A program made the translations under genes and the position numbers. From the NCBI RefSeq assembly GCF_014205635.1, contig NZ_JACIIV010000003.1, positions 124,001 to 188,000 on the forward strand: a DNA stretch of 64,000 nucleotides, read 5' to 3'. This DNA is from Polymorphobacter multimanifer. GTDB lineage: Bacteria; Pseudomonadota; Alphaproteobacteria; Sphingomonadales; Sphingomonadaceae. Below are positions 5,256-23,300 of the stretch, in pieces. The notes under the pieces were generated by a model. That model was not told the origin of the DNA. It saw nothing but the letters and a program-made list of their open reading frames with translations, and did not search any database. Each line of letters starts with the position of its first letter. The stretch's first letter is position 1.

Positions 5256-6640
5256 AGCCGCACCCGCGCCGCAGCGATGGCGGCGCGCACATTGGCAGGA
5301 GCGGTGCCGCCGAAGCTGGTGCGACTGGCGACCGACGCCTCGACGCTGAGTACATTGCGCACCGCCGGGGTGATCCGGGGGTCGATCGCGGCGAGATCGG
5401 CATCCGAAAGCCCGTCGAGATCGGTGCCGGCAGCCTCGGCGGCGCGAACGGCGCGGCCGGTGATGTCATGCGCCTCGCGGAACGGCACGCCGGCCTCGCG
5501 CACTAGCCAGTCGGCGAGGTCGGTGGCGGTGCTGAAGCCGGCAGCCGCGGCGGCGCGCATCCGGGCGGTGTTGAAGCCGATCGTCGCCACCATGCCGGTC
5601 ATCGCCGTCAGGCACAGCCCGAGCGTGTCGTGCGCCTCGAAGACCGGCGGCTTGTCGTCCTGCATGTCCTTCGAATAGGCGAGCGGCAGGCCCTTCATGA
5701 TCACCGCCAGCCGCTGGAAATTGCCGAGCAGCAACCCGGACTTGGCGCGCACCAGCTCGGCGGCATCGGGGTTGCGTTTTTGCGGCATGATCGAGCTGCC
5801 CGTCGACCAGGCATCGGGCAGCGTGATGAAGCCATAGGGCTGGCTTGCCCAGATGATCAGCTCTTCGGCGAGCCGCGACAGGTGCAGCCCTGCCATTGCT
5901 GCGGCCGACAGGTAATCGAGTGCAAAATCGCGGTCCGACACCGAATCGAGGCTGTTGGCGGTGGGCCGCGCGAAGCCGAGTGCAGCCGCGGTGGCATCGC
6001 GATCGACCGGGAAGCCGGTGCCGGCAAGCGCTGCGCTGCCGAGCGGGCACTCGTTCATCCGGGCCGCGGCATCGGCGAAGCGCGAGCGATCGCGCAGCGC
6101 CATCTCGACATAGGCCATCAGGTGATGCCCGAGGGTGACGGGCTGGGCGATCTGCAGATGGGTGAAGCCGGGGAGGATGGTGTCGGCATGCTGCTCGGCG
6201 CGCGCCAGCAGCGCTTCGATGAAGGCCAGCAGCGCTGCATCGACCTCGGTGCAGGCGGATCGCACCCAGAGCCGGAAATCGGTCGCCACCTGGTCGTTGC
6301 GCGACCGCGCGGTGTGCAGGCGGCCGGCACCGGGGCCGATCAGCGCCCGCAACCGAGTCTCGACGGTCATGTGGATATCTTCGAGGGCGATATCCTCGGG
6401 CACGCCATCGGCGGCATATTCGGCCTCGATCTGCGCCAGGCCGCCGAGAATGGCGTCGACATCAGCGATGGGGATGATGCCCTGCGCGCCGAGCATCGTC
6501 GCATGCGCACGGCTGCCGGCAAGGTCCTGTTGCCACAGCCGCTTGTCGGTGCCGATCGAGGCGTTTATCTCCGCCATCACGGCTGCGGGTCCAGCGCCGA
6601 AACGGCCGCCCCACAGCGGATTGGAAGAGGGTTCCGACAT
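5252..6640 (-). CDS. argH: Argininosuccinate lyase
   Basis: ArgH splits argininosuccinate into arginine and fumarate, the last step of arginine synthesis. The 462-residue protein begins [14 protein letters not shown]. It carries the [10 protein letters not shown] substrate motif near residue 110, [16 protein letters not shown] near 150-165, and the fumarase-superfamily signature around [11 protein letters not shown] near residue 280. Length and motifs are those of a normal enzyme. The start codon overlaps the start of the divergent tlpA-like gene within the bases CATG at 6638-6641. A GGAG lies 13 bases upstream, which is a long spacing. Upstream in-frame sequence lies antisense to the thioredoxin gene and is not coding. 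It heads the operon with lptM, lysA and galU. Confidence 0.95.
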
Positions 6641-7229
6641 GACGGCGAAAAGGCTCCTGATGGTGGCGGCACTCGTGCTTTCGACAAGCGCCTGTGGTGA
6701 TGGCGGCGATAAGGGAAAGACCGGGGCACCGCAAGCGAACCCGGAAACGGCTGCGGCGCCAAAGGCCGCAGGCGACCTCATGCTCAACGCGATCGACCGG
6801 CGCGCCGCCGGCACCGCCGCACCCGATGTGCGGCTCGAGCTGCCGGGCGAGGGCGAGACGAGCCTCGCCAAGGTGATCGCCGGCGCCGGCGGCAAGCGGG
6901 TGCTGGTGAACCTCTGGGCCACCTGGTGCCCGCCCTGCCTTGCGGAAATGCCCGAGCTCGACGCGCTGGCCGGGGACAAGGCAGACACGCTGCTGGTGGT
7001 GCCGGTAAGCCAGGACATGGAAGGCTGGCAGGCGGTGAACGGCTTCTTTGCTCCCGGAAAGTTCAAGGTGCTGACGCCGGTGCTCGACCAGCCGGGGTCA
7101 CTCGGCGAGGCGCTCAAGGTGAAGGGGCTGCCGATGAGCGTGCTCTACGGCGCCGATGGCAAGGAGATCTGGCGGGTGGCCGGCACGCCCGATTGGGCGA
7201 GTGCCGCGATCCGGGCCGAGGTGGGCTGA
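6639..7229 (+). CDS. TlpA-like periplasmic thioredoxin (disulfide reductase family)
   Basis: The 196-residue protein starts at ATG 6639 with an AGAGGG ribosome site seven bases upstream. It has an N-terminal export signal ([19 protein letters not shown]), possibly a lipoprotein signal, although the lipobox (TSAC) is weak. After an Ala-rich linker comes a thioredoxin fold with the active site [15 protein letters not shown] near residues 90-105 and a late cis-Pro region ([10 protein letters not shown]). Such proteins reduce periplasmic disulfides, for example in cytochrome c maturation or for specific client proteins. The target here is unknown, and no ccm genes are present. Its start codon overlaps that of argH on the other strand, and it converges with the flippase gene at 7233. 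Confidence 0.85.
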
Positions 7230-7232
7230 GTT

Positions 7233-8522
7233 TCAGCCGGCCGGCGGCGGGCTGCGGGGAATGTAGCGCCGCGCGCCGATATAATTCGCGATGTTGCGCA
7301 CAGTGGCGGTGGTGGCATGGGCAATCGCCGCGCCGGTGAGCCCGAGGATCGGCACGAGGATCAGCGCCAGCGCAACCAGCAGGACCACGCCGAAAACGGT
7401 GGTAAGGAACAGCACGCGCTCATGCCCGGCCATGCTGAGCAGCCCGCCGACCGGGCCGGTGATCGCCTTGCTCGCCTGGCCGAGCGAAAGGATGGCGAGC
7501 GCCGGGGCGGCAACGACAAAGGCCGGGCCGAAGGCGACCGACAGCAGCTGCTCGGGGAATATGACGCAGATCAGCATCAACGGACCGAAGGCGAGCGCCA
7601 TGGCGAGCGAGGCGCGGCGGTGGCGCGACCAGACCAGATCGGGCCGGCCGGCGCGAATGTCTCCGGCCACCTTGGCGGCCAGATAGGTCTCGCCGGTCGT
7701 CAGCACCAGCGTGAGCGCCAGCACGATCTGCATGGCCACGCGCATGGCGCCCATGTCGGCAGCGCTCGCAGCACCGGCGATGAGCGCCAGCAACAACCAG
7801 TCCGAGAACATCTGCATCCCCTGGGTGGCCATCATCGGCAGCCCGGCCGCGGTCAGTGCCTTGCCATCGGCGGGCGACGCGGATTCCCATTTCCGGGCGA
7901 CGCTGCGGATCATCAGCCAGATCAAGGCCACCGCGACCAGCTGGCAGCCGAAGAAGAACAGCACGGCGGCGCGCGCATCGATCTCGACGCCGCGCCACGC
8001 CAGTGCGGCCACCAGCCCTGCGAACAACAGGCTGTTGAAGCCTTCGAAAAACTGGCCGGCGACGGGCTTGCCGATGCCGCGCAGCACGCCAAGGCCGAGC
8101 TTGTGGAGGGCCGCCGAACCGATGCCGAGCCCGGCCGCGATCAGCGCATTCGAATCGACCGCCAGTCGCATGGCGATGGGTGTTGTCGCGGCAAGCACGG
8201 TCCAGCCCACCGAAAGGCCGAGGCCCGCCACAAGCATCCGGCGTTGCACATAGGAGAGAATGCCGGCGGCCGATACGCTGTCCTTCTGGCGGAGAGCACC
8301 GGCGATTTCGCGCAGGGCGACAAAATCGAGCCCGCGCATCGCGACAAGGCCGATGAGCGTTGCGGTGACCACCGCGAAGCCATAGTCGCCCACCACCGCG
8401 GGGCCGGCGTGCCGCGCCAGAAGGGCCGTGGCCACAAAGGCCGCAACTGCGTTGATGCCCTTGAAGGCATAGGCCGGCACCGCCGGCGAAGCGAGGCGCT
8501 TGAGAATGTTGGAGGCGGACAT
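7233..8522 (-). CDS. Oligosaccharide flippase family protein (Wzx/MATE-like)
   Basis: The 429-residue integral membrane protein has about 12 hydrophobic segments spread along its length, a long basic N-terminus leading into the first helix (AYAFKGINAVAAFVATALLARHAG) and the family-typical LVAMRGLDFVALREIAGAL stretch. These proteins flip lipid-linked glycans across the inner membrane. It stands alone, 22 kb from the EPS flippase at 30572 and not closely similar to it by eye, so it may serve a different glycan. The start was placed at the ATG giving MSASNILKRLASP. The upstream in-frame extension has no coding character. It converges with the thioredoxin gene, with only three bases between the stops. 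Confidence 0.8.
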   Translation of the reverse strand: MSASNILKRLASPAVPAYAFKGINAVAAFVATALLARHAGPAVVGDYGFAVVTATLIGLVAMRGLDFVALREIAGALRQKDSVSAAGILSYVQRRMLVAGLGLSVGWTVLAATTPIAMRLAVDSNALIAAGLGIGSAALHKLGLGVLRGIGKPVAGQFFEGFNSLLFAGLVAALAWRGVEIDARAAVLFFFGCQLVAVALIWLMIRSVARKWESASPADGKALTAAGLPMMATQGMQMFSDWLLLALIAGAASAADMGAMRVAMQIVLALTLVLTTGETYLAAKVAGDIRAGRPDLVWSRHRRASLAMALAFGPLMLICVIFPEQLLSVAFGPAFVVAAPALAILSLGQASKAITGPVGGLLSMAGHERVLFLTTVFGVVLLVALALILVPILGLTGAAIAHATTATVRNIANYIGARRYIPRSPPPAG

Positions 8523-8625
8523 CGGCGCCTGCCTAGAGGCTTTGCCTGACCAAGGGAACCGCCCACACAGTGCCTGCGTTCGGCGGTCCTGACCGGCGCT
8601 GCGTGTCGACCGACCGGACCGGCGG

Positions 8626-9189
8626 CTAAAGTCCGCGGCGGCGGATCGCGTCCAGTGCCTCGAGCCGGGCGCGCAAGGCCGATGCGCGTGCCGCCAGGGC
8701 TTCGCCACCCTGCGCCTGGGCAAACACCGGCTCCAGCGAGGCAAGCGCTGAATCCTGCACCCCGAGCGGCTGAAAAAGGACTTCGAAGCGGCTTGCCTGC
8801 GCCTCGCTTTCGATCGCCTTCGCTTCGGCGCCAGCCGCGGCGATGGCGCGGCGGGCGTCGCGCTGGAGAACCGGCCATTCGGCCTCCACCCTGGCGATCT
8901 CGCTTTCGATTTCGGTGAGGCGCGCAGCGGCGTCGGCCGGAAGCGGCTGCTCGACAATCGCCGGCAGCCCGGCAAGTGCGGGCAGTTGTGGCGGCGCTGC
9001 CGGCGCATCGGGGCTGCATCCGACACAACGGCCGAGCGGCACCCGCGGCACCAGTGGCGACACTTCGTCGGCGCGGGGTGCAAGCGAGGGCCACCCCGGC
9101 CGCCTGTCGCGCGGTTCCGCCGCATCGTCGCTGGCGCAGGCAGCGAGCAGCAGGGCGGAAAGGGACAGGAAACGCATCGACATTGCCAT
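8626..9189 (-). CDS. Hypothetical coiled-coil lipoprotein
   Basis: No family was recognised. The 187-residue protein begins MAMSMRFLSLSALLLAAC, a clear lipoprotein signal with lipobox LAAC. The ATG at 9189 was preferred because AGGA lies eight bases upstream; ATGs at 9183 and 9177 are also possible. The mature part has a Pro-rich segment with a CVGC pair (about residues 55-58), then from about residue 90 an Ala/Glu/Arg-rich region with heptad-like spacing that predicts a long helical coiled coil. It is probably attached to a membrane in the periplasm. It faces away from the tRNA-Arg gene and lies upstream of the leftward flippase gene. Confidence 0.65.
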   Translation of the reverse strand: MAMSMRFLSLSALLLAACASDDAAEPRDRRPGWPSLAPRADEVSPLVPRVPLGRCVGCSPDAPAAPPQLPALAGLPAIVEQPLPADAAARLTEIESEIARVEAEWPVLQRDARRAIAAAGAEAKAIESEAQASRFEVLFQPLGVQDSALASLEPVFAQAQGGEALAARASALRARLEALDAIRRRGL

Positions 9190-9252
9190 CGCTGCTATCC
9201 TGCATGGCAGCGGTTGCCAAGCCCGCGCGGCTCGCCTATAGGCGCTCCCCAC

Positions 9253-9329
9253 GCACCCGTAGCTCAGCTGGATAGAGCATCAGACTACGAATCTGAGGGT
9301 CGGACGTTCGAATCGTTCCGGGTGCACCA
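9253..9329 (+). tRNA. tRNA-Arg (anticodon ACG)
   Basis: A 77-base cloverleaf can be drawn. The acceptor arms GCACCCG (9253-9259) and CGGGTGC (9319-9325) pair perfectly, and a D-arm with AGCTCAGCTGGATAGAG follows. The anticodon stem CAGAC/ATCTG holds the loop CTACGAA with anticodon ACG at 9287-9289, and a T-arm contains GTTCGAATC. The CCA end is encoded (9327-9329). The A at the first anticodon position would be converted to inosine to read CGN arginine codons. A short T-rich run directly after the gene may help termination. Confidence 0.97.
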
Positions 9330-9537
9330 TTTTCCAGAATTCAGCATTTCAGGCTGGCGTGCTCGGGGCGGAGTTCGCCTCGCAGCCCTTTGTGCGCGCC
9401 TGAGGGAAACACATGCATGCAGCCAGGGCGATGAGGCCGTGGGGGCCCATGGATTTGCCGCGCGTGTCGCTCGTTGTCACGAAGTACAGGCATCGCAGTG
9501 AACTGTGGCCTTCAGCTGATAACGTCTTTCACGGCGC

Positions 9538-10836
9538 CTAGAACGCGCGTCCGAGCCCGATCTCCACTGCTACGCGGGTGTATTGGAAGAGCTCGGTGTT
9601 GGAGGCATTGTGTTCGACCGACAGGCGCACCACCGGCGCCAGCCCGCGAACCGCTGCCTGGCGGAAGGTTCCACCGACCGCGGCGCGGACCAGCCATTCG
9701 CGGCGCGGCTCGGGGAACAGGAACAGCGGCGCGTCCGAAACGAAGCGCCTCGCGGCCAGCGAGCCGAAGACGGTGGTGCGGCCGACATCGCGGAACACCA
9801 ACCCGGACAGCCCCGCCGATGTCGAGGCGAAGGCCGGATCGAGTGCGGTCTGCCGCGCGGCACTGGCGGAGATGGCGGCACCCGAGCGGGGAGCAAGCGC
9901 AAACTCATAGGATGACGCAAGCTGGTAGAGCGTGCCGTCCTGCAGGCCGTTGCGCGGAAAGCGGAGCTGGCTCACGCCGGCATTGAGCGTCACTTGCGCG
10001 GTGCGGCTGACCGGGCGCAACCAATCGAGGCTGACGGACAGGGCATCGGTGAACACCCGGCCGCCGAACCAGCGCCGCTCGCCGCCCAATGATCCGGTGA
10101 GCCGGCCGCCGCTGACCGCCACCCGCTCGAGGCCGATGCGGGAATCGATGCTGATGTCGTTGAACTGGTTCTGGCCATAGAGCCGGGCAGCCCCCGACAC
10201 GCGCGGCAGCAGGTTGAGCCGCGTGCCGATCGGCAGCCGCGCAAAGGCCTGGCCGGTGGCGGCGAGCCCGACGCCCGAGGTGGCCACGGCATCGGGGCTG
10301 AGCTCGATGCTGTCGTTGATGATGCTCAAAGCGGTGGCGCGGTTGATGTTGGTGTCCGGCGCCAGCGCCAGCTCGAAGGTGCCGCCGAGCCGGGCCTGCG
10401 AGCGCAGCGCGGTCTGGAAGCGGTCCACCACCCGCGCCACATCGGGCGGCAGGCCGGCTGCTTGCGCCTGGCGAAGCTCGCGCGACGCGCCGCGATCATC
10501 GCCGAGCGCTGCGAGGATGCGCGCCAGCTCGAGCCGGGGGCGGGCGGCGTCGGGCTGCTCGTCCAGAAGGCGGCGCAGCCAGGCTGCGGCATCGCGGGGC
10601 TTGCCCTGCCGCTCGAGCAGCTGCGCGAGCCGGAACCGCGCTTCGTTGCGAATTGCCAGGTCGGGATCGCCGGCGAGCGCCCGCAGTGCGGCTTCGGCGT
10701 CGGCGATGCTCCCCTCGGCTTCGAGCTGTTGTGCCAGCTTGAACATCTGGGCCGGATTGAGCGTGGCGACGGTGGAGCCCGGCGCGGCGGCCTCCGCAGG
10801 CTGGACCAGAGCTGCCGCCAGCGCGGCTGCCAACAT
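9538..10836 (-). CDS. Slam-like outer-membrane protein (TPR domain plus DUF560-type beta-barrel)
   Basis: The 432-residue protein has a short signal-like start ending AEAAA (about residues 1-18). A helical N-terminal half with TPR-like repeats follows (about 25-150, with AEAALRALAGDP, RFRLAQLLERQGKPRDAAAWL and RLELARILAALGD). After FELALAPDTNINRAT (about 165) comes a C-terminal half of alternating beta strands ending in an aromatic residue (VEIGLGRAF). TPR plus 14-strand barrel, the APDTNIN motif and a terminal Phe are the hallmarks of surface lipoprotein assembly modifiers (Slam), which move lipoproteins to the cell surface. It lies nine bases after the lipoprotein gene at 10846 on the same strand, the classic Slam-client arrangement. 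The ribosome site is weak (AGG, eight bases). The call is by motif and context. Confidence 0.8.
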   Translation of the reverse strand: MLAAALAAALVQPAEAAAPGSTVATLNPAQMFKLAQQLEAEGSIADAEAALRALAGDPDLAIRNEARFRLAQLLERQGKPRDAAAWLRRLLDEQPDAARPRLELARILAALGDDRGASRELRQAQAAGLPPDVARVVDRFQTALRSQARLGGTFELALAPDTNINRATALSIINDSIELSPDAVATSGVGLAATGQAFARLPIGTRLNLLPRVSGAARLYGQNQFNDISIDSRIGLERVAVSGGRLTGSLGGERRWFGGRVFTDALSVSLDWLRPVSRTAQVTLNAGVSQLRFPRNGLQDGTLYQLASSYEFALAPRSGAAISASAARQTALDPAFASTSAGLSGLVFRDVGRTTVFGSLAARRFVSDAPLFLFPEPRREWLVRAAVGGTFRQAAVRGLAPVVRLSVEHNASNTELFQYTRVAVEIGLGRAF

Positions 10837-10845
10837 GCCGCGCGC

Positions 10846-12798
10846 CTACCGAAGCCGGCCGACGATGACGCCCTGTCCGACGACGGTGGTGGCAAAGGCG
10901 GGCGTCGTCACGGTGAAGGACGCGCCGATCTCCTCGCCGGTCGGGCCGAAGAACGTCCCCCGCAAGGCGCCACTGGTGTCTGCGCGGCCGCCGATGCCCG
11001 CGGTGAAATGATCGAGGAACGCGATGGCAGCGCCGATGCGCCCGTCGGTGAAAGAAAGTCCATCGAGGCGCGCGGTTTCGCCGGTCCGGGCGTTGGTGAT
11101 GTCGTGCGTCATGCCGCCCGTGAAGCGTTGCGCGGCCCAGTCGAAGGCCAGGTTGGCGGTGCCCTGCAGTGTAAAGCGGTCGGCGGCTTCGCCGGTGCCC
11201 ACTGCACTGCCATAGGACACGCCGGTGTAGGTGCCGGTGCCCTGGCGGGGCAAATTGTCGGCGAAGGTGCGCAGGCCCCAATAGCCGGAGCGGTCGACCC
11301 GGCCTGTCGTGGGCACGCGGGTCTCGATCAGGGCGAAGCTGGTGTAGCTGAGGAACAGCTCATCGTTCGTCTGCGCGGCGTTGTAGACGCGGTAGAGCCG
11401 ATCGGAGCTGCCGTCGGAGATCCTGTAGGTGGTGAAGCGGGCATTCGATTCGGCCGCCACGCGGTTGCTGGCCGAAAGCGTGCGGCCGTCGCCGAGCGCG
11501 ATGGTGCCGGCCGCTGGATCGATCCCGGCTTCGAACACGATGCCGGTCGGCTCGAATGTCGGCATCGTGAAGCGATCGGTGAAGCCGGGCTGGGCTGCGC
11601 CGAAATAGGTGATGCCCGCCTGGTTGCCGACAAGCTTGATGGCGCCGTCGTTCAACCCGGAGACGAGCGTTGCAAGGCTTTCGGGCGGCGGTGCTGTTTC
11701 GCGCGGCGAGCCGACGATCACGCCCAGGAAGCTCGTGCCGGCGCTGCTGTTGCTGCCACCCAGGGCGAGGCCGACTTCCGTTCCGTTGACCCCAAACATG
11801 CCGCCCTCCGCGGTGCCGGCGAGGCCTTGCACGATGCTCTCGCCGCGGAAGTCGAAGCTGCCCGCCAGTGCATTTCCGGTCGATGCCAGCGTGCCGCTCG
11901 CTGTCAACCGACCGGGCCGCTGCAAGGGGATCTCGTTCGCCGACAGCGCGAGCCGGCTGTTGGTAGCCAACTGGGCGGTCCATCGGTTCGTGGTGAAGTC
12001 GATCGACAGCAGGCCGCTGCCGACCGTTCGCGCCGTGCTGCCGATCGCCACCAGCTGCCCTTCGAGACCGACCCCGAAGTTGACCGTGCCCGACAGCAGC
12101 CGGTTTTCCGGCGCGATGCCAAGCACAAAGGCGTTCAATTCGACGGTTGCGCTCGTGCCCATGGTTTCGCTGCGTTCCCACAGGCCGCCGATCACCGAGC
12201 GGGTTCGCAGGCTGAAGCCGGCGCCGACGCGGGTGATGACCATCCGGTCGGTCGTGGTGCCATCGGTCGTGCGGTAGCCGATCGATTGAAAAGTCGAGGT
12301 CGCATTGTCGGTCTGTGAGGAGGTGAAGACCGCGGTGTCGGTGCCGGTCGACACCACATAGGCGTTGCGATCGGGATCCAGTGCGAATGTCAGCGCCGGC
12401 CGGACGATCGTGGGCGCCGCCGTGACGGCGCCGCGCGTGTAGGTAAGCCGTGCGCTTTTCGTCTGGAAGGTCTCGGCGAGGGGGACCAGCTGGTCGAAGG
12501 TGGTGTTGCGCGGTGCTGGTGTGGGGGTGGGTGTTGGCGTTGGCGTCGGAGCGGGCGTTGGGGTTGGGGTTGGGGTTGGGGTTGGTGCAGGCGGCGGCGT
12601 CGGAGTGGGTGCCGGCGTTGGGGTTGGAGTTGGTGCGGGCGTCGGAGTGGGTGCAGGCGCAGGCGTCGGCGCGGGGCTTGGCGGCGGGGCCGGCAGCATG
12701 CCGATGCCGCCGCCGCCTGTTCCGCCCGTGCCGCCGCCCCCACACGCCGCGAGCATGAGTGGCAGGACAGAAGCCCCCAAAAGCAGATAGCGCGACAT
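10846..12798 (-). CDS. TbpB-like bilobed surface lipoprotein, putative Slam client
   Basis: The 650-residue protein starts at ATG 12798 with GGGAG five bases upstream. It has a lipoprotein signal with lipobox LAAC (Cys19), a Gly-rich stretch (20-33) and an Ala/Thr-Pro repeat linker (36-96), which would span the cell surface. Two similar halves follow. Each ends in a barrel-type segment with a GxF-FG-xGxE(V/I)G signature: GGMFGVNGTEVGLAL near residue 333 and GTFFGPTGEEIGASF near residue 614. Each signature is preceded by strands such as LSIDFTTNRWTAQL or LAFDWAAQRFTGGM. This repeated handle-and-barrel design is that of transferrin-binding protein B and related Slam clients. The ligand is unknown, and no TonB-dependent receptor lies in the window. 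It is the first gene of the operon, with a candidate promoter just upstream. Confidence 0.75.
   Translation of the reverse strand: MSRYLLLGASVLPLMLAACGGGGTGGTGGGGIGMLPAPPPSPAPTPAPAPTPTPAPTPTPTPAPTPTPPPAPTPTPTPTPTPAPTPTPTPTPTPAPRNTTFDQLVPLAETFQTKSARLTYTRGAVTAAPTIVRPALTFALDPDRNAYVVSTGTDTAVFTSSQTDNATSTFQSIGYRTTDGTTTDRMVITRVGAGFSLRTRSVIGGLWERSETMGTSATVELNAFVLGIAPENRLLSGTVNFGVGLEGQLVAIGSTARTVGSGLLSIDFTTNRWTAQLATNSRLALSANEIPLQRPGRLTASGTLASTGNALAGSFDFRGESIVQGLAGTAEGGMFGVNGTEVGLALGGSNSSAGTSFLGVIVGSPRETAPPPESLATLVSGLNDGAIKLVGNQAGITYFGAAQPGFTDRFTMPTFEPTGIVFEAGIDPAAGTIALGDGRTLSASNRVAAESNARFTTYRISDGSSDRLYRVYNAAQTNDELFLSYTSFALIETRVPTTGRVDRSGYWGLRTFADNLPRQGTGTYTGVSYGSAVGTGEAADRFTLQGTANLAFDWAAQRFTGGMTHDITNARTGETARLDGLSFTDGRIGAAIAFLDHFTAGIGGRADTSGALRGTFFGPTGEEIGASFTVTTPAFATTVVGQGVIVGRLR
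12511..12693 (-). repeat. Low-complexity Ala-Pro/Thr-Pro coding repeat
   Basis: This stretch inside the TbpB-like lipoprotein encodes residues 36-96, nearly all alternating Pro with Thr or Ala. The DNA is built of repeated six-base units related to ACCCCA/ACGCCA (read on the minus strand). Such runs can change length by slippage, so the reach of the lipoprotein head may vary between strains. On the plus strand the same DNA reads as a Gly-Val run, which is an artefact. Confidence 0.85.
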
Positions 12799-12822
12799 CA
12801 ATGCTCCCGTGTTCCCCACATA

Positions 12823-12850
12823 TTGGTATCGCGTGCGGCTTGCGTGTCAA
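12823..12850 (-). promoter_or_regulatory. Candidate sigma-70-type promoter of the lipoprotein-Slam operon
   Basis: On the minus strand a perfect TTGACA (12850-12845) is followed after 16 bases by TACCAA (12828-12823), about 25 bases before the lipoprotein ATG. The -35 box is strong and the -10 weak. No Fur-type box was recognised near it. Confidence 0.4.
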
Positions 12851-12938: not shown

Positions 12939-13604
12939 ATGAGGACGCGCATCAAGATCTGCTGCATAGCATCGCCCGAGGAAGCCGAACTCGCCATTGC
13001 CGCGGGTGCCGATGCACTCGGTCTGGTTGCGGCGATGCCCTCCGGCCCCGGCCCAATTTCTGACGACATGATCGCGCGCGTCGCAGCGCAAGTCCCGCCA
13101 CCCGTGGCGACATTCCTCCTGACCAACGAGACCAGCGCCGAGGCCATTGCCGATCATGTGCGCCGCACCGGTCCCACCGCCGTTCAGGTGGTGAACCATA
13201 TCGCACCCCTGGAAGCCGCCCGCCTGGCGAAGCTGGTTCCCGCCACACGGCGGGTTCAGGTCATCCATGTGGAGGATGCCGGCGCGCTCGATCTGATCGA
13301 CGCATATGCTCCGCACGTCCATGCCTTCCTGCTCGACTCCGGCCGCCCAGGCCTTGCGGTGCCGGAGCTGGGCGGCACCGGGCGGGTGCACGATTGGGAC
13401 GTCAGCGCCAGCTTTGTCGTCAGGAGCAAACGGCCCGTGTTCCTTGCCGGCGGCCTCAACGCCGGCAACGTCGGCGATGCGATTGCCAAGGTGCGACCCT
13501 ATGGCCTCGACCTGTGTTCAGCGCTGCGCACGAACGGGGCGCTCGATGCCGGCAAGCTGCAGGCTTTCATCGATGCGGTCGCGCGCGCCGACATGGCGCG
13601 TTGA
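12939..13604 (+). CDS. Divergent TrpF-like (phosphoribosylanthranilate isomerase family) protein
   Basis: The 221-residue TIM-barrel protein resembles TrpF, which isomerises phosphoribosylanthranilate in tryptophan synthesis. It starts MRTRIKICCIASPEEAELA, where TrpF has KICG; the catalytic cysteine is kept. AIAAGADALGLV, FLLDS (catalytic aspartate), GGTGRVHDW and FLAGGLNAGNV also match. The last phosphate loop, usually SSGxE-PGxKD, reads CSALRTNGALDAGK here and is clearly altered. There are no trp genes nearby. It may be a true but divergent TrpF or a paralogue acting on another phosphosugar compound. Its gene is divergent from the lipoprotein-Slam operon and ends 34 bases before the convergent CYTH-CHAD gene. 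Confidence 0.75.
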   Translation: MRTRIKICCIASPEEAELAIAAGADALGLVAAMPSGPGPISDDMIARVAAQVPPPVATFLLTNETSAEAIADHVRRTGPTAVQVVNHIAPLEAARLAKLVPATRRVQVIHVEDAGALDLIDAYAPHVHAFLLDSGRPGLAVPELGGTGRVHDWDVSASFVVRSKRPVFLAGGLNAGNVGDAIAKVRPYGLDLCSALRTNGALDAGKLQAFIDAVARADMAR

Positions 13605-17336: not shown

Positions 17337-20300
17337 GTGATATCAGCCAAGCGACCAATCCTTGCCCGCCCGGTCCCCCATCGGGTGTTGACAGCCCCGG
17401 TGTGGCTTGATCCTGCGCCCGTCCGTTCCGACCTTTTCGGCCTGGAACGTCTGGAACTGCACGCACAGTCGCTGGCACGCGCGCACCGGCTCCAGCCGGG
17501 AACCCTGCGATCGAAGCAGTTGCTTGCCCGGCTCGATGAAAATGCCGTCGCCCTGCGCCAGACCTATCGGGAGACGGCGCTCGCGCTCGAGCTCGATCGA
17601 CCGATTGCACCGGCGGCCGAGTGGCTGATCGACAATTATCACATCGTCGAAAAGCAGATCCGCAAGATCCGCGACGACCTGCCCACCGATTTCTACCGCC
17701 AGCTTCCCAAGCTGGCCGACGGCCCGCTCGCGACGCTGCCGCGTGTTTTCGGCATTGCCTGGGCCTATGTGGCGCATAGCGACAGCCTGTTCGAAGAAGA
17801 CCGCTTCCGCCACTTCATCATCGCCTATCAGGAGGTGGAAGCCCTGACGATCGGCGAGCTTTGGGCGCTGGCCATTTCGCTGCAGCTGGTGCTGGTCGAG
17901 AATCTGCGCCGGCTGGCCGACCTTGCGATTGCCGACGAGAAAGACCGGTCGCGCGCCGAGGCCTTTGCCGACGCCCTGTTTGCGGCGCCCAGTGATGCCG
18001 TCGCACTTGCCACCCTGACGACCATCGACAATGTGCAGTCGCCGGCCTTCATCAGCCAGCTGGCATTGCGCCTGCGCGACGTCGACAACCGGAGCGAGAT
18101 GGCGCGCCGCTGGCTCGAATCCCAGGCGGTTGCTGCCGGCAACAGCATTACCGCCATCGATACCGTCGCGCAGAACGCGCTGATCGCCTCCACGGCCTCG
18201 ATCCGCAATGTGATCACGTCGATGCGATCGATCGCCGAAACCGACTGGGGTGACATGGTCGAATCGGTCAGTGTTGCCGACCGGGTGCTGCGCGCGGGCA
18301 GCAACTTTGCCGCGATGGATTTCGCATCGCGCAACCTCTACCGCAACGCGCTCGAGGAATTGTCGCGCGGGTCCGCCTATGCCGAAGATGGCGTTGCTGC
18401 TCGTGCCATCGTCCTCGCCAACACCCGGCTCAGCGACAACCATATCGACAAGGATCCGGGATTTTTCCTGATCGGCTCGGGTCGGCCGGAGCTTGAGGAC
18501 GATATCGGCTTTGTGCCACCCGTCGACATCCGCTTGGCGCGCAGCATCCGCGAGGGCGGCATCCTAGTCTACATCGCCCTCGTCATGCTGGCCTCCCTGC
18601 TGCTGCTGCAGGCGCCGCTGATCGGGCTGGAGACGGCCGAATTGCCTGCATGGTGGGCCGCGCCGATGCTCCTCGCCGTATTGATCATGGCGATCGAGAC
18701 GGCGACCGCGATCGTCAACCGCATGATGGCGACGGTACTGCCGCCGCGCATCATCCCGGCACTGGAATTGAAGGACGGTGTCCCCGCCGGTTTGCAGACG
18801 CTCGTCGCGGTGCCGATCCTGCTGGGGTCGGAGACCCGGATCCAGGCGGAAATCGCCAACCTCGAAATACACCATTTGCGCACGCGCGAGGATGCGGTGC
18901 GCTATGCGCTGCTGTCGGACTTTGCCGATGCGCCGACCGAGACGCTGCCGGGCGAAGCCGAACGGCTGGCGGAGGCGCATGCCGCCATCGCTGCGCTCAA
19001 CCTTCGCTATCCGGTGGACGGGGGCGCCCCGCGCTTCCTGTTCCTGCATCGCCGCCGGCAGTATAATCCGGCGGAGCAGTGCTGGATGGGCTGGGAGCGC
19101 AAGCGCGGCAAATTGCACGAGCTCAACCGGCTGCTGCACGGTGCCACCGACACATCCTATTATGGCCCTGATGGCGGCTCGCCATCGGTGCCCGTCGGCG
19201 TCCGCTACGTCATCACCCTCGATGCGGATACGCAGCTGCCGACGGGCACGGCGCGGCGGATGATCGGCAAGATGGCGCATCCGCTCAACCGGCCGCGGTT
19301 CGACGTCAACCTCCGCCGCGTCGTGTCCGGCTATGGCATCATGCAGCCCCGCGTCACCGTGGCACTGCCGATCGGGCGCGGTGCATCGCGGTTCGAGGCG
19401 CTTGCCGGCGGCCCGGCGGGCATCGATCCCTATGCCGCGGCGGCGTCGGACCTTTACCAGGACCTGATCGGAGAAGGGTCCTTCACCGGCAAGGGCATCT
19501 ATGAAATCAACACCTTCATGGCGTCGCTCGATGGCCGCGTGCCAGTCAACACGATGCTCAGCCACGACCTTTTCGAAGGGATCTACGCCCGCGCCGGGCT
19601 GATCACCGATGTCGAGGTCGTCGAGGACTTCCCCGTTCGCTACGATGCCGCGGTGCGCCGCCAGCATCGCTGGGTGCGCGGCGACTGGCAGCTGTTACCC
19701 TGGATATTCTCTTCGGACCGTTCGCCCGCCAGAGGATTGCCCGGCAATGGCCGTGCCAAGATGCTCGACAATCTGCGGCGTTCGCTAGTGGCCCCGTCGA
19801 TCATGGTGGCGGTGGTCGGCGGCTGGATGATGCCGGCGGTCGCCAGCGCGCAATGGCTGCTGGCGCTGCTTCTGCTGATCGCCATCCCGCCGCTGCTGCC
19901 GCTGCCATCGCTGCTGATGGCAAAACGGCCACGCGACGTGCCGCTGCGCGCGCATCTGAATGCCATCGGCAACGAAATCCGCATTGCCATCAGCCATATC
20001 GCGCTGCAGTTGACGACCGTTGCCGACCAGGCCGTGCGCATGACCGACGCCATCGTCCGCACACTGGTTCGGCTGGCGATCACCCGTCGCAACCTGCTCG
20101 AATGGACGACCGCGGCTTCCGCAAGCGCGTCGCCCAATCCCGGCCTCGCACAGACCTGCTGGTTCATGGCGCGGTCCCTGGTCGTCACGCTTGTCGCTGC
20201 GGCCGCGGCCATCTGGTTGCAGCCGGCGATCCTGCCACTGGTCGTGCCGCTCGCCCTGCTGTGGCTGGCTGCTCCGGCCATCGCCTGGGCGATCAGCCAG

Positions 20301-23300
20301 CCGCGCCCCATTGCGACCGCACACCGGCTCGATGCCGATCAGCGCCGCCGGCTCGAAGACATCGCGCTGCAGACCTGGCGGTTCTTCACCGCGCATGTCA
20401 CCGCCGAGCACCACCATTTGCCGCCGGACAATTTTCAGGAGACGCCGACGCCGATCGTCGCCGGGCGGACCTCGCCAACCAATATCGGCCTCTACCTGCT
20501 CGTCGTCGCGACGGCACGCAACCGTGGGTGGTGCGAACCGGCCGAGGCACTCGCCCGGCTGGAAGCGACCTTTGCGACTTTGCGCATGCTGCCGCGCTAC
20601 CGCGGGCATTTCTTCAACTGGTACGACACCCGCGACCTTCGCGTTCTCGAACCTGCCTATGTCTCCGCCGTGGACAGCGGCAATCTTGCCGGGCACCTGA
20701 TTGCATTCGCCAACCTGCTGGACGGATGGGACAATGACGCCGCGGCGCGGCTCGCGGCCGAGGCGCGGGCGATGGCGATGGCGATGGACTTCGCCTTCCT
20801 GCTCGATCCCGAACGCCTGCTTCTTTCGATCGGCTGGTCGGTCGCCGAAAATCGCCGCGATGAAAGCTGCTACGACCTGCTGGCGTCGGAGGCGCGGCTC
20901 GCCAGCCTGTTCGCCATCGCCAAGGGCGACATTCCGGCGAAACACTGGTTCCGGCTCGGCCGCAGTGCGACGACGGTCGGCAATGCATCGGTGCTGATCT
21001 CCTGGTCGGGATCGATGTTCGAGTATCTGATGCCTTCGCTTCTGATGCGTGCGCCCGATGGCAGCCTGCTCGAGACCTCGAACCGGCATGTGATCGAACG
21101 CCAGCGCGAATACGCCCGTGAAGCCGGCGTGCCCTGGGGCATTTCCGAATCCGCCTACAACGCCCGCGACCGGGAGATGACCTATCAGTACAGCAATTTC
21201 GGCGTGCCCGGGCTCGGCCTGAAGCGCGGTCTTTCAGAAAACCTGGTCATCGCCCCCTACGCCACCGGTCTTGCCGTCATGGTCGATGCCGAGGCGGCAC
21301 TTGCCAATCTTGCAGCGATCGAGGCCATCGGCGGGCGCGGCGAATACGGCTTCTACGAGGCCATCGACTTCACGCCGGCGCGGGTGCCGAGCGGTGCCCA
21401 TGGCGCCATCGTGCGCACCTACATGGCGCATCACCAGGGCATGGCGCTGCTGGCCATCACCAACGTCCTCGATGGCGGCCGGCTGCGCGACGCCTTCCAT
21501 GCCGAGCCGATGATCCAGGCGACGGCGCTGCTCCTCCACGAACGGCCGCCGCGCGGCGTCGGCACCTTCCAGCCGCGTGCCGAGGAAATCTCGATCGCCG
21601 CGACCGACCGGCCGGCCGAGCCCGGTGCCGTGCGCACCTACAGCCAGCACCCGGAAGCCGTGCTTCCCGTCCACCTGCTGTCCAACGGCCGCTATGCGGT
21701 GCTGCTGACGAACACCGGTGCCGGCTACAGTCGCTGGAAGGGACTGGCGATAAACCGCTGGCGCGAGGATCCGGTCGTGGAGAACCACGGCAGCTGGCTT
21801 TATGTCAGCGACCATGAGAGCGGCGACTGCTGGTCGGCGACGATGGCACCGCGCGGCGGCAAGCCGACGCAATTCACCGCGACCTTCACCGAAGGCCGCG
21901 CCGAGTTCCGCCGCCGCGATGGCGTGCTGGCGACGACCACCGAAGTGCTGATCTCGCCCGAGGACGATGCCGAGGTGCGTCGCGTCTCGATCGCCAATCG
22001 CGGCAACCGCGCCCGGCGGATCGACGTCACATCGCTCATCGAACTGTCGGTCGGCGCCCAGGATACCGACCTCGCCCACCCGGCCTTTGCCCGCATGTTC
22101 GTCGAAACCGAGCAGCGTGACGGCCCGGTCCTGATCGCTCACCGCCGACCACGCAGCAGTGGCGATCCGTCGATCTGGGTGGCCCATGTCGCCGTCGTCG
22201 AAGGGGACGCGGTCGGCCCGGTCGAATGGGACACCGATCGCAGCGCCTTCATCGGTCGCGGCCGCGCGGCCGGGGACCCGCTGGGCCTGGCGATGCCGCT
22301 CGGCGGGCATTGCGGCACGGTCATCGATCCGGCGTTCGTGCTGCGCTGCCCGATGTCGGTGGCAGCCGGCCAGACGGTGCGTGTCGCCTTCTGGACCATT
22401 GCCGCTGCGTCGCGCGCCGAGTTGCTCGATGCCATCGATCGGCACCGCGACGCCAGTGCCTTCGATCGCGCCGAGCTGGGCGCCTGGACCCAGGCACAGA
22501 TCGAACGCCGCTTCCTGCGGCTCGATCCCGGCGATGCAGCCGATTTCCAGCGCCTCGCCGGCCATATCGTCAACGCAGGTGCCGTCCACGCGCCGCCGCC
22601 GGCGCTGGTCGCCGCTGCGGCCGCGCCGCAATCGGCACTGTGGGTTCATTCCATTTCGGGTGACCTGCCGATCGTCATGGTTCGCATCGACGACCCGCGC
22701 GACATTGCCGTGGTCGTCGATATCCTGCGCGCCTTCGAATTCCTCCAGGCGCGCTTTCTGGCCTTCGACATCGTCATCCTCAACGAACGCCGCGCCTCCT
22801 ATATCCAGGACCTGCAGAACGCCATCGACGATGCCGTCCGCGCCGTCCGGGCCCGGCCGGCGCCCGCCGGGGTGCGTGGCGACGTGTTCACGCTGCGAAG
22901 CGACCTGATGCTCGAACAGCAGGTGACAACGCTGCGTGCGTTGAGCCGCGTCGAGATATCGGCGCGGCGTGGAAGCCTGCGCCGGCAATTGCAGCGGCCC
23001 GAGCCGGCACTGGCAAGCGTTCCTGCGCCCGCCCCGACGGGTGGCCCCGACCATGGCACCCGACCCGGACGTCCCGCCGATCCGGTGCTGCCGACCCCCG
23101 AAACGCTCGAGTTCTGGAACGGCAGCGGCGGATTCCATGCCGATGGGACCGAATATGCGATCATTCTCGATGGCCGCGAGGCAACGCCCGCACCGTGGAT
23201 CAATGTCCTCGCCAATCCCGAGTTCGGCTGCCAGGTGTCGGCCGACGGATTTGGGGCGATCTGGTCGGGCAATGCCCGCGAAAACCAGCTGACACCCTGG

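Follow-up and report, generated by a model that had tools for sequence, protein, structure and literature searches.

The locus raises the question of whether two adjacent genes of Polymorphobacter multimanifer, located in a window of 64,000 nucleotides (the whole stretch of DNA analysed here), form a system for displaying a protein at the cell surface, and whether such a system would be new to this lineage. Very probably the two genes encode a cargo protein and its translocator, in a pairing of the Slam / type 11 secretion (T11SS) kind. Direct support for the pair comes from its gene anatomy, its predicted folds and its conserved linkage (Table 1). The lipoprotein gene lies upstream, and 9 bases (10837-10845) separate its stop codon from the ATG of the Slam-like gene; this gap and both open reading frames are found where the original prediction had placed them. 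For the lipoprotein, the ATG at 12798 (650 aa) was taken as the start; the list of open reading frames has a GTG at 12819 (657 aa).

Table 1. Predicted features of the locus (positions in the window) and the basis of each assignment
Feature	Residues	Position	Strand	Basis
Slam / T11SS outer-membrane protein gene (probable)	432 aa	9538..10836	(-)	ORF; SlipAM; alignment to relatives
Periplasmic TPR domain	28-146	10399..10755	(-)	Pfam TPR_19; seven helices in model
14-strand outer-membrane barrel	150-431	9544..10389	(-)	AlphaFold2 model
APDTNIN motif	159-165	10342..10362	(-)	conservation in 32 sequences
Slam-type cargo lipoprotein gene (probable)	650 aa	10846..12798	(-)	ORF; Pfam TbpB_B_D; model; Foldseek to TbpB
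Lipoprotein signal peptide and lipobox LAAC, Cys19		12742..12798	(-)	read from sequence
Pro/Thr/Ala linker, 61 aa	36-96	12511..12693	(-)	sequence
N-lobe (handle + barrel)	98-367	11698..12507	(-)	AlphaFold2 model; own barrel profile
N-lobe end signature GGMFGVNGTEVG	332-343	11770..11805	(-)	sequence; alignment A2
C-lobe (handle + eight-strand barrel)	443-650	10849..11472	(-)	Pfam TbpB_B_D; model
C-lobe end signature GTFFGPTGEEIG	614-625	10924..10959	(-)	sequence

The lipobox of the upstream product is predicted to be L16-A17-A18-C19. The Pro/Thr/Ala linker has the length first claimed for it, and DNA tandem repeats occupy positions 12517-12683 within it. In the AlphaFold2 model, two handle-barrel lobes are separated by a stretch of low confidence. 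Pfam recognises the C-lobe only, through a TbpB_B_D match (PF01298) of 27.4 bits against a cut-off of 26 at residues 516-629, and hmmscan of the lipoprotein returned no Pfam match for the N-lobe. Our own barrel profile, built from the C-terminal lobes of family cargo including that of the window, matches the protein twice, giving 36.7 bits for the N-lobe and 126.3 bits for the C-lobe, which was also in the training set. The NCBIfam model slam_lipo (NF041636) reaches 27.7 bits at residues 508-638, well short of its cut-off of 80. The best 27 PDB matches found by Foldseek are all TbpB (E 7.3e-14 to 3.4e-10), in alignments spanning 505-651 columns, and are followed by the TbpB C-lobe, hemophilin and fHbp. 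By query length, the whole cargo reaches low TM-scores (0.24-0.30) to these 27 chains of TbpB, and the arrangement of the lobes therefore differs from that of TbpB or is poorly modelled. The bilobed TbpB-like lipoprotein of the original prediction is thus borne out by the Pfam match on the C-lobe, the modelled lobes and the Foldseek ranking. Both of the GxFFGxxGxE(V/I)G end signatures that had been read in it are present, although the first has an M for the pattern's F. Assignment as TbpB proper was rejected, no Pfam handle-domain family appearing among the matches up to E = 1.

The downstream product had been described as a TPR and beta-barrel protein carrying an APDTNIN motif, and all three elements were recovered. 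TPR_19 matches with 32.5 bits (Pfam cut-off 25), while TPR_Slam scores just 20.0 bits versus 35.2. SlipAM is borderline relative to its cut-off of 22, with 20.6 bits in hmmscan and 22.2 with the neighbours in frame in the genome search; the relatives G095 and G162, at 46-48% identity, reach 63 and 50 bits. The protein shares 37-58% identity with 27 of 31 aligned relatives and 24-32% with the other four. Within the motif, all 32 aligned sequences have N163 and N165, and conservation is 90% or more at A159 and P160. The AlphaFold2 model (mean pLDDT 89.2, pTM 0.72) has 14 strands preceded by the TPR helices.

Among the 50 matches that Foldseek listed for this model there is no Slam; the top matches are BcsC, and PelBC comes fifth. 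Such a ranking would also suit an exopolysaccharide secretin of the PgaA, BcsC or PelB type with the lipoprotein as its accessory, as would the fact that some PgaA proteins match PF04575 (PMC8406197) and the apparent presence, judged by eye, of a large polysaccharide cluster in the window from about 26 kb onward. Such an identity is nevertheless highly improbable: the modelled barrel has 14 strands versus 16 for the PgaA cluster (PMC8406197), 104 of the 113 Slam frames examined have a TbpB-like partner, and no glycan synthase was noticed, by eye in the gene list, directly adjoining the pair.

The pairing of Slam with its cargo is real and general in the family, beyond chance. The genome itself contains a single SlipAM match and a single TbpB_B_D match, which are these two neighbours. 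Across 298 Sphingomonadaceae genomes, 74 of 105 SlipAM matches have a TbpB_B_D match within 3 kb, always on the same strand, and the other 31 are without Pfam-detectable cargo at that distance. The joint conservation for which the original prediction had proposed a check is thus present, and its pairing of a Slam with a TbpB-like client agrees with Pfam, the models, Foldseek and the linkage across the family.

Finer counts depend on how relatives were sampled. A single-protein search of the genome contigs gave zero relatives, and an alignment-based search of them gave 181, of which 80 were kept as named loci. Our own gene caller lost or truncated many cargo genes rich in Pro/Thr, calling both genes in 47 of the 80, and cargo was counted by six-frame profile searches instead. 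By these, the 104 of 113 distinct Slam frames mentioned above have a cargo-like frame on their own strand at a distance of up to 6 kb. Such counts lean toward finding these proteins because the barrel profile was trained on same-family cargo, a bias from which the Pfam counts (74/105) are free. Moreover, loci L072-L108 were taken from Pfam matches, nearly all for nearby cargo, so that only the named set is choice-free. It comprises 71 distinct Slam frames from 70 loci, ten of the 80 having been left out because they repeat the Slam of an earlier locus (none of the ten cargo-less), and 63 of the 71 have a cargo-like frame; four of the remaining eight start within about 320 bases of the end of both locus and contig. 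By a loose pattern, accepted at any position in the frame ahead of the first lobe, 111 of 123 cargo frames contain a lipobox there.

In 64 cases the first start codon of the Slam frame lies between -60 and +150 nt from a cargo stop. In the window, cargo and Slam share one reading frame. Read-through or fusion of the two was considered for the close pairs and rejected: 20 are in frame, against 17 and 27 for the remaining frame classes, and there is thus no excess of the in-frame class. The distances of Slam and cargo correlate with r = 0.63 for either lobe over 59 pairs, shared species history being left in. The mirror-tree comparison of C-lobe and N-lobe favours neither (difference 0.000, 95% -0.086 to 0.107), and this equal correlation gives no support either way to the C-lobe as the recognised part. 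The count of lobe conservation covers 19 of 20 rows and omits L088, in which the segment had aligned as linker.

How the pair might work can be drawn from other systems, since surface translocation by Slam-cargo pairs has been demonstrated experimentally in other bacteria (PMC5449769, PMC9090332). From the published Slam work we infer that the lipoprotein is moved to the surface under the direction of its C-lobe. After Sec-dependent export and lipidation at Cys19, it would travel to the outer membrane. The barrel protein, whose TPR domain would lie in the periplasm, would there recognise the C-terminal barrel lobe. The 14-strand barrel would then pass the lipoprotein through or along itself to the cell surface. 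There the lipid would serve as anchor and the linker as a stalk holding the two lobes off the membrane, while the N-lobe probably binds some external ligand. The identity of that ligand, and the function of the lipoprotein, are a guess.

One possibility, on the doubtful side, is that the lipoprotein acts as a nutrient co-receptor linked to TonB, for haem, a metal or another ligand, comparable to TbpB with TbpA, which uses an unlinked receptor. As first observed, no TonB-dependent receptor adjoins the pair, and none of the 61 Plug matches of the genome lies on the 193-kb contig of the window. Those 61 matches do show that the genome has potential partners elsewhere, the nearest folds of the lipoprotein in Foldseek are TbpB and hemophilin, and some relatives, e.g., L094 and L081, have a receptor-like gene adjoining the pair. 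Cluster 1 T11SS are also reported in the literature to co-occur with TonB and haem genes. However, PMC12282271 excluded receptors from its statistic because they co-occur with other outer-membrane proteins too. In our screen, 175 large neighbours yielded 29 candidates of 550-1300 aa with an aromatic C-terminus. Twenty-three of these and L101 were scanned for Plug; three at locus ends (two receptor-like by eye), two duplicates and one further gene from a locus already represented were left out. Eighteen of the 24 scanned, from 113 neighbourhoods in which a Slam was called, duplicates included, are Plug-positive. Receptor neighbours are thereby no commoner than the expected ~0.25 per 16 kb (61 in 3.92 Mb), a comparison made against a single background genome, with some truncated neighbourhoods and with a screen that covers neither receptors at locus ends nor those with a different C-terminus. 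Since no receptor is linked to the pair, direct ligand capture or adhesion is at least as likely as a dedicated TonB co-receptor.

The position of the pair also invites the idea of a recently acquired island, as the Slam frame ends 212 bases from a tRNA-Arg gene (acg) at 9253-9329. A tRNA occurs within 1 kb outside the pair at 6 of 113 Slam loci, the window included; the count is 6 and not 8, since the predictions at L125 and L126 fall inside a cargo frame and are therefore probably false. Presence is patchy (2 of 12 congeners, one of these with a remnant), and one named locus comes from Brevundimonas, of the order Caulobacterales. Recent acquisition is nonetheless rather unlikely: a second copy of the tRNA 3' end is absent from the window, the composition of the pair is that of its surroundings, and no integrase-like gene was noticed adjoining it in the gene list. 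Nor was an empty site found, the tested flanking genes standing in another context in the congeners G005, G006, G007 and G010, and the fused remnant in G009 speaks for loss.

The suggestion that such a system may be undescribed in this lineage fails, because both transporters and cargo have already been reported: PMC8406197 defines a T11SS subcluster 1C that is largely made up of environmental Sphingomonadaceae, and PMC12282271 describes the cargo architecture as “Sphingomonas surface proteins”, a class of cluster 1 T11SS cargo in which proline-threonine repeats are combined with two to three copies of the handle-barrel unit; lipoproteins make up 18 of the 30 members in print. The window pair is one more member of a pair type already known in sphingomonads. 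The cargo class was published as a prediction (PMC12282271), and our search of the literature found no experiment on a sphingomonad member of it. Being compact, with two genes and one cargo, the window pair is a clean candidate for testing these transporters in free-living alphaproteobacteria and could show what a non-pathogen displays with them. The cargo lobe counts, from one to four, suggest modular growth. It is conceivable, and we propose it tentatively, that the sphingomonad Slam/T11SS is a modular stalked display without a dedicated TonB receptor, in which one translocator serves one to several lipoproteins of one to four handle-barrel lobes. Such lipoproteins would have grown as single lobes and whole bilobed units were duplicated, and their N-terminal lobes could diverge freely towards adhesion or ligand capture.

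Among known systems, Neisseria Slam1-TbpB shares with the pair the TPR domain and 14-strand barrel, the bilobed lipoprotein and lobes made of handle and barrel. The window pair departs from it in having a Pro/Thr/Ala stalk of 61 residues and, between the lobes, a stretch of low confidence, and in lacking an adjoining TonB receptor and a Pfam handle-domain match. The hemophilins (HphA, HrpC) have the same handle-barrel unit and the same kind of transporter, with a Foldseek E of 2.8e-6 to Vibrio HphA; hemophilin-like group 1 has been described as mostly soluble and has one lobe, whereas the window protein has two and is predicted to be lipidated. Subcluster 1C (PMC8406197) shares lineage and transporter family with the window Slam. 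Closest are the “Sphingomonas surface proteins” (PMC12282271), which likewise combine N-terminal Pro-Thr repeats, several TbpB-type barrels and an adjoining T11SS gene. The window lipoprotein has this pattern in its linker at residues 36-96, its two lobes, of which Pfam sees the C-lobe only, and its adjacent Slam, and shows no difference from the class. Possibly new are the lack of an excess of TonB-receptor neighbours, as seen in an incomplete screen, and the fused remnant of the pair in the congener G009. The relatives L081 and L151 have four barrel matches, one above the printed maximum of the class, and a four-lobed cargo derived from a duplicated bilobed unit is possibly new as well.

The Slam-like gene and the adjoining cargo gene lie where the original prediction had placed them. 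The cargo begins with a signal peptide ending in a lipobox (LAAC, Cys19), followed by a stretch rich in glycine, a 61-residue Pro/Thr/Ala linker (36–96) and then two lobes. Since the DNA of this linker consists in part of overlapping tandem repeats, its length could differ among strains. Pfam detects TPR repeats in the Slam-like protein, which scored 20.6 bits in one search and 22.2 bits in the genome search against SlipAM, the Slam barrel family (PF04575; cut-off 22). The C-lobe of the cargo matches TbpB_B_D (PF01298) with 27.4 bits (Pfam cut-off 26), the N-lobe is without any Pfam match, and the NCBIfam model slam_lipo gives 27.7 bits against a cut-off of 80. In the genome itself SlipAM and TbpB_B_D have one match each, namely these two neighbouring genes.

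Features of the window at and around the gene pair
Feature	Position	Strand	Remarks
tRNA-Arg (acg)	9253-9329	+	212 bases from the Slam frame
Slam-like gene	9538-10836	-	ORF, 432 aa; starts nine bases past the cargo stop
Cargo lipoprotein gene	10846-12798	-	ORF, 650 aa from ATG
Tandem repeats in linker DNA	12517-12683		overlapping, periods 6 to 54
TrpF-like protein	12939-13604	+	second genome copy (contig C2) only 33% identical
2721-aa ORF	17337-25502	+	presumably cyclic glucan synthase-like
Likely-looking large polysaccharide gene cluster	about 26-58 kb		judged by eye; our assumption

The predicted structure of the Slam-like protein (alignment of 32 sequences, mean pLDDT 89.2, pTM 0.72) comprises seven helices (28–146) and a barrel of 14 strands (150–431), in line with the TPR-plus-barrel layout proposed for the 432-residue protein. 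Foldseek ranks BcsC first, with porins and PelBC behind, and no Slam structure occurs among the best 50 matches, so that the fold search alone cannot name the barrel protein. Sequence does argue for a Slam, by way of the SlipAM scores of relatives: two that are 46–48% identical to the window's protein (L092 and L093) reach 63 and 50 bits. The model of cargo residues 98–650 (20 cargo sequences, mean pLDDT 76.3, pTM 0.70) has two lobes, each with a handle sheet and a barrel, and a connecting stretch of low confidence. This model, together with TbpB structures at Foldseek ranks 1–27 (E 7.3e-14 to 3.4e-10), supports the bilobed TbpB-like lipoprotein read from the sequence; TbpB C-lobe, hemophilin and factor H binding protein come after rank 27. 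Whole-chain TM-scores by query length against those 27 structures are only 0.24–0.30, which fits two separate lobes whose arrangement differs or is uncertain.

That Slam and cargo are conserved together holds across the family. Among 298 genomes, SlipAM is found in 89, TbpB_B_D in 74 and both in 70; TbpB_B_D lies within 3 kb of 74 of the 105 SlipAM matches, always on the same strand. The named-genome loci cover 80 of 181 Slam-alignment matches; ten repeat an earlier Slam, and 71 distinct Slam frames remain, 63 of which are accompanied by a cargo-like frame that lies no more than 6 kb away and on their strand. Family members named are Sphingobium sp. SYK-6 (G162) and Sphingomonas jejuensis (G074), and one named-genome locus comes from Brevundimonas guildfordensis (order Caulobacterales). 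Over all distinct Slam frames, window included, 104/113 have a cargo-like frame by the same criterion, giving 123 cargo frames. By our own barrel profile, trained on cargo of the same family including the window's, 54 of these have one lobe, 49 two (the class of the window cargo), 18 three and 2 four; a loose lipobox pattern precedes the first lobe in 111. Several relatives (L072, L073, L074, L076, L077, L079) carry near the pair a gene that we take to be UvrA-like, and M13 peptidases account for 5 of 24 large neighbours scanned.

Few congeners carry the pair. One congener (G005) has a Slam 49% identical, ended by the contig edge, next to a three-lobed cargo frame. A second (L007, G009:C11) retains only a remnant, in which a Pro-Thr cargo lipoprotein gene continues in frame from its beginning into the last 52 Slam residues, and the other ten of 12 congeners gave no match at E 0.001. 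This distribution fits vertical presence and loss, and is compatible with transfer too. A tRNA occurs within 1 kb outside the pair at 6 of the 113 Slam loci; 16 tRNAs were predicted there, two of which (L125, L126) fall within a cargo frame, are probably false and were left out. Close copies of the TrpF-like protein (65–68%) exist in only 2/12 congeners, in a different gene context.

The original prediction was right that no TonB-dependent receptor adjoins the pair: none of the 61 Plug matches of the genome lies on its contig (C3, 193 kb). In a partial screen of 113 called-Slam neighbourhoods, duplicates included and some shortened by contig ends, 18 of 24 receptor candidates scanned within about 6.5 kb were Plug-positive. 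Because chance alone, with this one genome as background (61 in 3.92 Mb), gives about 0.25 Plug per such stretch, receptors are not enriched near Slam loci in this screen. A receptor-like gene adjoins the pair in a few relatives (L094, L081). At L094 (G280:C17, 5691–11627) one Slam has near it a cargo gene and a second, cargo-like one, together with a divergent gene resembling a TonB receptor and, judged by eye, a regulator-like gene; this is possibly a receptor-linked variant. With no enrichment and few adjoining receptors, dedicated TonB partners are not generally linked to the pair here; an unlinked partner is possible.

In other bacteria, Slam-type proteins put TbpB-like lipoproteins onto the surface (PMC5449769), and the anatomy of the window pair makes the same kind of display most likely. 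The lipoprotein would be exported and lipidated, recognised by the TPR-barrel protein, passed to the cell surface and displayed there on its Pro/Thr/Ala stalk. PMC12282271 makes a case for the C-terminal barrel as the targeting element. Distance correlations are neutral as to the recognised lobe, Slam distances giving r = 0.63 with the N-lobe and the C-lobe alike (59 pairs, shared species history included). The two lobes are similarly conserved as well: both barrels average a pairwise identity of 0.30, the N-lobe handle 0.23 and the C-lobe handle 0.28 (19/20 rows).

The relative L081 (G292:C1), whose Slam is 58% identical to the window's, has a cargo frame of 1209 aa with four lobes (5724–9353). 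Lobes 1 and 3 are closer to the window N-lobe (30 and 26%) and lobes 2 and 4 to the C-lobe (37 and 41%); this alternation, and the 42% likeness of lobes 2 and 4 (lobes 1 and 3 only 28%), suggest that a bilobed unit was duplicated. Four lobe matches also occur at L151, in a 1037-aa frame that is without a lipobox pattern. One Slam can have several cargo frames beside it: five at L073, four at L077 and three each at L086, L139 and L164. At L073, L077 and L164 these differ in lobe number. The four-lobed cargo and the loci with three to five cargo frames per Slam lend support to a modular display system, a reading we put forward tentatively.

The suggestion that the pair might be undescribed in this lineage was not borne out. 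T11SS subcluster 1C is largely made up of environmental Sphingomonadaceae (PMC8406197), and the "Sphingomonas surface proteins" (18 lipoproteins, 12 soluble) combine N-terminal proline-threonine repeats with several TbpB barrel domains, in two to three handle-barrel copies (PMC12282271). An experimental paper on a sphingomonad member was not found in searches of open-licence papers. Since the window pair agrees with the published description in the features tested, Pfam alone detecting the C-lobe only, it is a further member of a kind already described. Four-lobed cargo and several cargo per Slam go slightly past what is in print, the L081 cargo exceeding by one lobe the range of two to three given there for the "Sphingomonas surface proteins".
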